Part shown: positions 38,004-39,547 of the stretch, one piece after another
Numbering within the stretch: position 1 is the stretch's first letter
Layout of the letters: each line of letters begins with the position of its first letter
Source of the DNA: a bacterium
GTDB taxonomy: Bacteria; Patescibacteriota; Saccharimonadia; Saccharimonadales; JAGQNK01
DNA: 41,711 nucleotides
Direction: 5' to 3'
Assembly (NCBI GenBank): GCA_029557815.1
Contig: JAKQHX010000049.1
Location: 1 to 41,711 of the forward strand
Position numbers and translations under genes: made by a program
Notes under the pieces: model-generated
The model's database searches: none
Told to the model about the DNA's origin: nothing
Seen by the model: the letters and a program-made list of their open reading frames with translations, nothing else

Positions 38004-38453
38004 ATGAGCAGACGAATCGCCGTGCGGGGTGTGGTCGTGGACGAACGTGGCCGGTTACTTTGCGTACGGCTCAAAGCCTACGGCGGGAGATCCGAGCGTA
38101 CATTCTGGTGTCTGCCCGGTGGTGGTATCGATAGTAACGAGACACTGTTTGATGCAATAAAACGCGAAATGATTGAAGAGACCGCTATCACCCCGGTGAT
38201 TGGTGAGCTCCTCTATGTACATCAGTTTGCCTTCGAAGGCAAAGAACAATTCGAATTTTTCTTTCATATCACCAATACTGATGACTACAAAAATATCGAT
38301 CTGTCTGCTGCTACGCATGCAGAGGAGGAAATTGCTGAACTCGCATTCGCCGACCCAAAGGCTATCTATATCCTGCCCGAATTCCTCGCCACAGAAAATC
38401 TCACACAACACATCTGCGACAAAGTCCCCGCCAAACTATTTAGCTACCTGTAG
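38004..38453 (+). CDS. Nudix hydrolase
   Basis: Nudix box GGGIDSNETLFDAIKREMIEETAI. Confidence 0.93.
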   Translation: MSRRIAVRGVVVDERGRLLCVRLKAYGGRSERTFWCLPGGGIDSNETLFDAIKREMIEETAITPVIGELLYVHQFAFEGKEQFEFFFHITNTDDYKNIDLSAATHAEEEIAELAFADPKAIYILPEFLATENLTQHICDKVPAKLFSYL

Positions 38454-38566
38454 AGAGGCCATCCATACAAACGAACTTCCCGGAATCTGCTCACGTCTGG
38501 GCTTGCTTTATTTAGATTTATATACATAATGAATTATGGAAGTAGGTTCAGCGGGATTCTTATGGA

Positions 38567-38656
38567 TCCGTCCATTGCGGTTACTTCACAAACAACATTA
38601 ATGAACGTTGTTTGTGAGGAGCCGTGTTTTTGTTTCTCACAAACAGAAAGGACGGA
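38567..38656 (+). promoter_or_regulatory. Candidate bistable leader RNA with SD sequestration
   Basis: TCCGTCC 38567-38573 pairs GGACGGA 38650-38656 (covers part of SD); TCACAAACAAC 38586-38596 pairs GTTGTTTGTGA 38607-38617; GTTTGTGAG 38610-38618 alternatively pairs CTCACAAAC 38636-38644. Confidence 0.6.
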
Positions 38657-38659
38657 CAT

Positions 38660-39115
38660 ATGGCAACACTCGAACGAGCCATAGACATAGCAACACAAAT
38701 ACACGAGGGCCAAACCCGGTTTGATGGCAGCCCGTATATCAGTCACCCGCTCAGGGTTATGGGGACAGTCGCCGCCCAAGGCCACTCTGTTGAAACACAA
38801 ATCGTCGCGGTCATGCACGATGCGGTGGAGGATAGTGACGGAGAACTTACATTCGACGACCTTCGTCGTGATGGCTTCGGTGATGAAGTAATATTCCCCT
38901 TACAGCTGCTCACAAAAGAAAAAGGTGCAGACTACGATTTCTACATCCAACGCCTAGCTGTCAACCCACGATCACGCGCAGTCAAAAAAGCTGACCTCTT
39001 CGATAATATGGACCTAACAGGGCTTGATAATCCTTCGCTCAAACGCATCGAAACCATAGAAAAATACGGTCGTTCCCTGCTCTACATAGCCCGCTTTCCC
39101 CAACCCCGTATATGA
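38660..39115 (+). CDS. HD-domain phosphohydrolase, small (p)ppGpp-hydrolase/RelA-SpoT-HD-like
   Basis: AIDIATQIHEGQTRFDGSPYISHPLRVM; IVAVMHDAVEDSD; AVKKADLFDNM. Start taken at ATG 38660 with SD AAAGGA. Confidence 0.85.
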   Translation: MATLERAIDIATQIHEGQTRFDGSPYISHPLRVMGTVAAQGHSVETQIVAVMHDAVEDSDGELTFDDLRRDGFGDEVIFPLQLLTKEKGADYDFYIQRLAVNPRSRAVKKADLFDNMDLTGLDNPSLKRIETIEKYGRSLLYIARFPQPRI

Positions 39116-39121
39116 TGTCAG

Positions 39122-39547
39122 CTAGACGCCGAGGAGACCTATGACGAGTGCCATCAACATGATGGTGGCAAACTCGTTACCAATATTTAGAAATGTCAGC
39201 TGCCTTGGGCGACCTTCGAACATATCATGTGTCGCGAACCGCACCGCGGTAAGGCCAAGCCATAGCCAAAACCCTGTGGTCAGCGCATCTTGCAAGAAGC
39301 TATTGCCAAAGAAACTATTTGACAGAAATGTCACATGCGCCAAAACATACGCCGTAATGAGCGAGATGATGAAGGTCGAGCCAAGCAGTACTGTCATCTC
39401 GTTCGACTTCATCTCACGCTTCATGTCTACCTTGGCAAGCTTCGCCCACGTCTTTCCAAAAATGCCCATGGAATACCAGACACTTCCGATAATCATAGAC
39501 GACACAGCCGCCAGTAATACTGCCAGATAATTTACTTCGACATTCAT
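39122..39547 (-). CDS. DUF1761-like membrane protein
   Basis: VNYLAVLLAAVSSMIIGSVWYSMGIFGKTWAKL; four TM helices. Confidence 0.8.
   Translation of the reverse strand: MNVEVNYLAVLLAAVSSMIIGSVWYSMGIFGKTWAKLAKVDMKREMKSNEMTVLLGSTFIISLITAYVLAHVTFLSNSFFGNSFLQDALTTGFWLWLGLTAVRFATHDMFEGRPRQLTFLNIGNEFATIMLMALVIGLLGV

Follow-up and report, generated by a model that had tools for sequence, protein, structure and literature searches.

Ultrasmall, host-dependent bacteria make up the lineage considered here, and RNA regulation in these organisms has barely been explored. To our knowledge, no riboswitch for (p)ppApp is known. Small riboswitches of the xanthine/NMT1 type consist of a P1 helix, a conserved internal loop and a P2 helix, with an expression platform that acts on P1. 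The leader described in this work appears to share this general architecture, but differs from that type in its loop sequence and has no covariance match in Rfam 15.

The ykkC subtype 2a riboswitch recognizes the guanosine alarmone ppGpp and raises expression when bound (PMC7266159, PMC5912903), as we propose for a guanosine alarmone and the present leader. However, the ykkC RNAs are characterised by three hairpins (PMC5912903), and subtype 2a mainly controls amino-acid genes, whereas the element found here is one nested two-helix domain of ~50 nt that controls hydrolases. On nucleotide binding, subtype 2c, a (d)NDP riboswitch, is predicted to increase the expression of nucleotide hydrolases of the Nudix and HAD types (PMC7266159). 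Such induction of a hydrolase by its own substrate is what we propose here as well, but the sequence and fold are unrelated and the enzyme is an HD_4 hydrolase of the RelA/SpoT type. The regulated protein belongs to the same family as Aph1, MESH1 and the small alarmone hydrolases. The Aph1 hydrolases of phages are immunity proteins that cleave the (p)ppApp (pppApp) produced by a toxin (PMC12226406). In Xanthomonas, an orphan enzyme of the small alarmone hydrolase group accepts several alarmones and NADPH as substrates (PMC9765508). We found no report in the literature of riboswitch control of Aph1, MESH1 or small alarmone hydrolase genes, and searches by motif sequence and by topic gave no description of the element.

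Architecture of the leader

The window, i.e., the whole stretch of 41,711 nucleotides that was analysed, carries the leader and the gene of an HD_4 protein (Table 1). An earlier note on this DNA had described a bistable leader in which segments A and C compete for segment B, with an outer helix TCCGTCC:GGACGGA that includes part of the Shine-Dalgarno (SD) sequence. All these segments, as well as the SD sequence and the ATG, are present where the note had placed them. Folding of positions 38530-38680 with RNAfold gave -51.6 kcal/mol, compared to -33.7 +/- 3.4 kcal/mol for shuffled sequences (z -5.2; 0/200 as good). The stretch that had been delimited, 38560-38662, covers the A/B/C region but starts too late, as the conserved part begins at 38539. 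The whole element extends over ~38537-38662, with A, B and C in its 3' half. In the first leader alignment, made with same-order genomes, the best-conserved block was GAAGUAGGUUCAGCGGGAU-loop-AUCCGUCCAUUGCGGUUACUUC (38539-38587), which lies upstream of most of the delimited stretch.

Two parts were missing from the earlier description. One is an aptamer-like domain, and the other is the U-run by which the A:B hairpin becomes an intrinsic terminator. The aptamer-like domain has a near-invariant internal loop, GG(n)nCA / GUCCAnUGCGG. The A:B hairpin is regarded as an intrinsic terminator because it reaches down to the GCGG of the conserved block and is followed by a U-run. Since the terminator stem includes this GCGG, the 3' strand of P1 and the GCGG are common to both folds. 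Transcription in the window is predicted to start at ~38537-38539.

Table 1. Positions in the window of the leader elements and the regulated gene.
Feature	Position	Strand	Remarks
Predicted -10 box CATAAT	38525..38530	+	5/6 match to TATAAT; 11 nt before GUAGG core
Aptamer-like domain, ~50 nt	38539..38588	+	22-member alignment A7; P1, internal loop, P2
P1	38539-38545 with 38581-38587	+	helix of aptamer-like domain
P1b GC	38551-38552 with 38577-38578	+	helix of aptamer-like domain
P2	38554-38559 with 38564-38569	+	helix of aptamer-like domain
Outer helix, TCCGTCC	38567-38573		
Intrinsic terminator	38577..38631	+	-25.8 kcal/mol, z -7.4
Terminator 5' arm GCGGUUACUUCACAAACAAC	38577-38596	+	includes segment A and P1 3' strand
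Segment A TCACAAACAAC	38586-38596		
Terminator 3' arm	38607-38625	+	includes segment B
Segment B GTTGTTTGTGAG	38607-38618		
Terminator U-run	38627-38631	+	follows A:B hairpin
Alternative B:C hairpin	38607..38646	+	15 contiguous pairs including G-U; shuffles as good 0.003
Segment C CTCACAAAC	38636-38644		
Shine-Dalgarno AAAGGA	38647..38652	+	unpaired bulge in aptamer-held fold; partly paired in terminator fold
Outer helix, GGACGGA	38650-38656		
HD_4 protein gene, 151 aa	38660..39115	+	regulated gene; start ATG 38660; Pfam HD_4 E 4.5e-8

Distribution of the element

Covariance searches covered ~1,990 genome slots in overlapping samples. The resulting 22 members belong to two classes of the phylum within which the distribution was searched, and are spread over many families of one order and the second class. 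Comparison of the leader DNA with 100 related genomes gave four same-order genomes with the same leader before an HD gene, and a pattern search added a further member (G144). With a covariance model built from six leaders, two genomes of another class of the same phylum were found, after which successive models gave eight more genuine loci in one large family and six in other families of the order. The matches of L246 and L248 are weak (25-26 bits), yet both are located upstream of HD genes, information that was absent from the RNA search. Among the other HD loci retrieved from related genomes, which encode long Rel as well as short HD proteins, L023 and L032 were the sole carriers and are true members.

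Three candidates were dropped, two being weak matches in coding sequence (L247 and L249) and one lacking the element (L064). In viral contigs, 57 and 118 stretches fit the core patterns, with the best reaching only 20-23 bits; these were treated as chance matches, and all eight that were inspected sit inside open frames of 111-779 codons. The element was absent from the five phage HD_4 loci and the one proteobacterial relative that were examined. A Streptococcus phage (KT337351.1, 10553-10966; L258) has an HD_4 hydrolase near a MuF-domain gene, without the leader.

Two subtypes occur. The first, GUAGG(U)UCAGCGG..GCGGUUAC, has a longer P1; in the second, GUAGGACAGCGG..GCGGCUAC, P1 is 4 bp long. 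A -10 box with at least 5/6 matches is present within 20 nt in 18/22 members, where 2.2 would be expected, and its spacing is nearly fixed inside each subtype. In the second subtype the distance from the end of a TATAAT-like box to the core is 6 nt, so the predicted start approximately coincides with the first base of P1.

The Rfam 15 search of the window gave only a tRNA; no meaningful match covered the leader when the threshold was relaxed to E 5, and 15 other leader loci had no match to the leader either. The ykkC/ppGpp covariance models matched neither the window leader (gathering threshold or E<=5) nor any of these 15 loci. There was likewise no Rfam 15 match to a T-box, a thermosensor, a ribosomal-protein leader or other cis-regulatory families in Rfam.

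Covariation in the aptamer-like domain

The earlier note had looked to covariation among related leaders for a verdict on its bistable structure, and compensatory changes are indeed present. In the alignment of the 22 sequences, 91.5% of the cells are paired, and two-sided changes number 62, compared to 23.4 in shuffles. The covariation score was 0.518 against 0.183 for shuffled alignments, with 0/500 shuffles as high, and the signal was lost when the partners were slid by 1-3 columns. P1 varies from GAAGUAG:UURCUUC to GUAAUAG:UUAUUAC in the second class and to GUAGUAG:UUGCUAC, while P2 is wholly rewritten. Across the same alignment, in which the P1 and P2 sequences vary, the internal loop changes little or not at all, and such an arrangement of an invariant loop between varying helices resembles a binding pocket. 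For P2, pairing of C14-G43 and G15-C42 was considered next to G16-C42; the latter is favoured by G076, which has U16-A42 and a G15 opposite an A.

An element of this kind is hardly a thermosensor, as the earlier note had considered, since an internal loop that is almost invariant in sequence is not needed for temperature sensing. The outer helix TCCGTCC:GGACGGA, through which a thermosensor or a translational bistable leader was supposed to operate, does form part of the minimum-energy fold of the window, but neither its conservation nor SD sequestration by it could be upheld. It is specific to the window, being absent in 14 relatives that have the same core and form at most five contiguous pairs upstream of the start codon, whereas the terminator and the aptamer are what is conserved. 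Regulation by this outer helix is thus very unlikely.

The terminator switch

In 21/22 members, a hairpin with a stability of -10 to -31 kcal/mol starts at the GCGG of the aptamer and leads into a U-run, and the 5' arm of the terminator consists of the P1 3' strand and the GCGG in 21/22. The member that has no recognizable terminator, L266 (L266:1501-1543), is located directly before its HD gene and may act on translation instead. For the window leader, the aptamer fold is at most ~1.3 kcal/mol above the minimum free energy until the transcript reaches ~38613. Once B is transcribed, the terminator is better than the aptamer-held fold by 6-10 kcal/mol. In the aptamer-held fold of the full-length leader, B is paired with C and the SD sequence is located in a bulge. 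As folding of the aptamer excludes the terminator, we argue for a switch of the ON type.

Mutual exclusion of A:B and B:C, as the earlier note had it, is real and is kept by compensatory change in relatives. The native A:B pairing outdoes all 300 shuffles in 15/15 leaders tested. For B:C, the native pairing exceeds the average strength of non-native ones in 12/15, and in 9/15 it surpasses at least 97% of shuffles. Contiguous B:C pairs number 15 in the window and L035, 13 in L036, 11 in L037 and L243, 10 in L242, and 9 in L042 and L038. Among members that have B:C the runs span 7-15 pairs, and most HD_4 leaders keep the pairing with different sequences. Translational control, as had been suggested, seems genuine in only some members: pairing of C with the SD sequence is significant in some homologues, with L036 and L037 showing the strongest, but falls short of significance in the window. 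The main output appears to be transcription termination.

The three copies of TCACAAAC in the window, both direct and inverted, could also be viewed as half-sites of a transcription-factor operator in the DNA. This is most improbable, because the arms of the relatives differ in sequence with their pairing kept, and because the arms are downstream of the predicted start and hence inside the transcript. A structured cis-regulatory RNA with a terminator switch is, on the other hand, very well supported, and the covariation in 22 members strongly supports the view that the HD gene has a bistable leader that regulates it in cis.

We propose that the RNA would start at or just before P1 and that a small ligand in the internal loop would hold P1 closed, which would block the base of the terminator. 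RNA polymerase could then read on into the hydrolase gene, and pairing of B with C would leave the SD sequence free. When the ligand is missing, the terminator, favoured by the 6-10 kcal/mol given above, would form and the message would be cut short.

Three hallmarks of riboswitches are found in this element: a covarying structured domain in the 5' UTR (22 members), an expression platform that is exclusive with the aptamer (21/22, plus the energetics in the window), and a link in sense orientation to functionally related genes (HD_4 in 17/22). It would count as a riboswitch, but no known class was found to include it. The leader probably represents an undescribed riboswitch class that acts as a transcription-attenuating ON switch.

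The regulated HD_4 proteins

A gene of the HD_4 (RelA/SpoT-hydrolase) type is the first or second open reading frame downstream in 17/22 members, which strengthens the link to alarmone hydrolases that had been a guess in the earlier note. All 14 downstream proteins that were aligned are HD_4 proteins with the residues of RelA/SpoT-type hydrolases. Their identity to the window protein is as low as 24-34% and their length ranges from 151 to 264 aa. Nine residues, R20, Y26, H29, H53, D54, E57, D58, D112 and N116 in the numbering of the window protein, do not vary among the 14, and they correspond to the residues for metal and substrate in RelA/SpoT hydrolases and in MESH1. Besides HD_4, the window protein gave partial matches to RelA/SpoT models, and the family profile retrieved structures of Rel, SpoT, MESH1 and small alarmone hydrolases. 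With the window protein alone, the best solved relative was the (p)ppApp hydrolase 7smg (E 3e-21), in which Arg20 is not kept at the aligned position. The 151-aa protein is predicted to be a small alarmone hydrolase of the RelA/SpoT type.

The short invariant loop and the tight coupling to one type of gene (HD_4 in 17/22) would also suit a protein-binding leader, in which the HD hydrolase or another RNA-binding protein on the internal loop blocks or permits the terminator, similar to autogenous attenuation in ribosomal protein leaders. We consider this unlikely, since divergence of the HD proteins to ~25% identity, and to the unequal lengths given above, has left the aptamer intact, and the five loci without an HD gene would need a separate RNA-binding protein. 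Sensing of a small molecule by the RNA itself is the likely mode of action.

Ligand and genomic setting

Because the regulated gene is mostly of the HD_4 RelA/SpoT/small-alarmone-hydrolase type, the likeliest ligand would be the hydrolase substrate or a close relative. In order of likelihood, (p)ppGpp would come first, followed by (p)ppApp, pGpp or another pyrophosphorylated nucleotide. The invariant Arg20 and the Rel proteins of most carriers would speak for (p)ppGpp, and the similarity to 7smg and the missing synthetase in the window's genome for (p)ppApp. A RelA_SpoT synthetase domain is present in 13/16 carriers tested, and was not found in the window's genome (96% complete), G057 and G599. 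If (p)ppGpp is the ligand, a source of it would be required in these last three.

The cassette of leader and HD gene is located between Nudix and DUF1761 genes in the window (38004-39547), between dnaK and dnaJ in three genomes, and before an aspartate-carbamoyltransferase-like gene in two. In the closest genome compared, G001 of the same genus, the cassette is absent and an unrelated 239-aa gene lies between the same flanks, which indicates that the cassette locus is variable.

Such variable sites, with absence from the one congener compared, are in line with a special case of the proposed switch, in which the leader would bind (p)ppApp or some other toxic alarmone and provide inducible immunity against pyrophosphokinase toxins instead of feedback in the stringent response. 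The relation of the window protein to 7smg, the role of phage Aph1 hydrolases that cleave pppApp as immunity proteins (PMC12226406) and the synthetase domain not found in the window's genome point in the same direction. However, Arg20, invariant in 14 HD proteins but not kept in 7smg, would better fit hydrolases of guanine alarmones, and a full-length Rel is also present in most carriers, which makes an immunity switch rather improbable. The broader proposal is a new class of riboswitch, without relation to ykkC, for a pyrophosphorylated nucleotide alarmone, be it (p)ppGpp or perhaps (p)ppApp, which would switch on the enzyme that degrades this alarmone. This proposal is tentative, with a chance that we put slightly below even.

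If the assignment as a riboswitch is correct, the leader would be a small, well-defined new class in a lineage where RNA regulation is little explored. If an alarmone is sensed, RNA would have solved the recognition of ppGpp-like ligands a second time and independently, or that of (p)ppApp for the first time, and substrate-induced alarmone turnover would be run by RNA alone. With an aptamer of ~50 nt, the question of the ligand can be addressed with one synthetic RNA.

Leaders without a downstream HD gene

Five of the 22 members (L056, L245, L261, L263 and L265) have small uncharacterised proteins downstream instead of an HD gene; in other genomes, some of these are encoded in one operon with an HD gene. 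A family of ~100 aa with the motif DNFHxMDE..ERYxSGxxD is encoded at L245 (L245:1125-1457, minus strand) and L263, and before the HD gene in L262; it has distant relatives on plasmids of Bradyrhizobium, Caballeronia and Granulicella. A second family of ~98 aa, LPDGD..VFEQTD..LAPNGGD.DYEY..FFSY, is encoded by the first open reading frame in L261 and by the second, after the HD gene, in L264, and had no match in NCBIfam or among plasmids. The leader would tie these small protein families to alarmone metabolism. A LOOT RNA (RF03000) is present at L263:1006-1123 (minus strand), ~380 nt from the leader copy. At L055:1157-1182 (minus strand) and L056:552-577 (plus strand), a common CTGACAAGTRCTACYAWAAYCCCGGG followed by a GC-rich hairpin is found downstream of the first open reading frame after the leader, and this combination is a second conserved element in two genomes of the second class.
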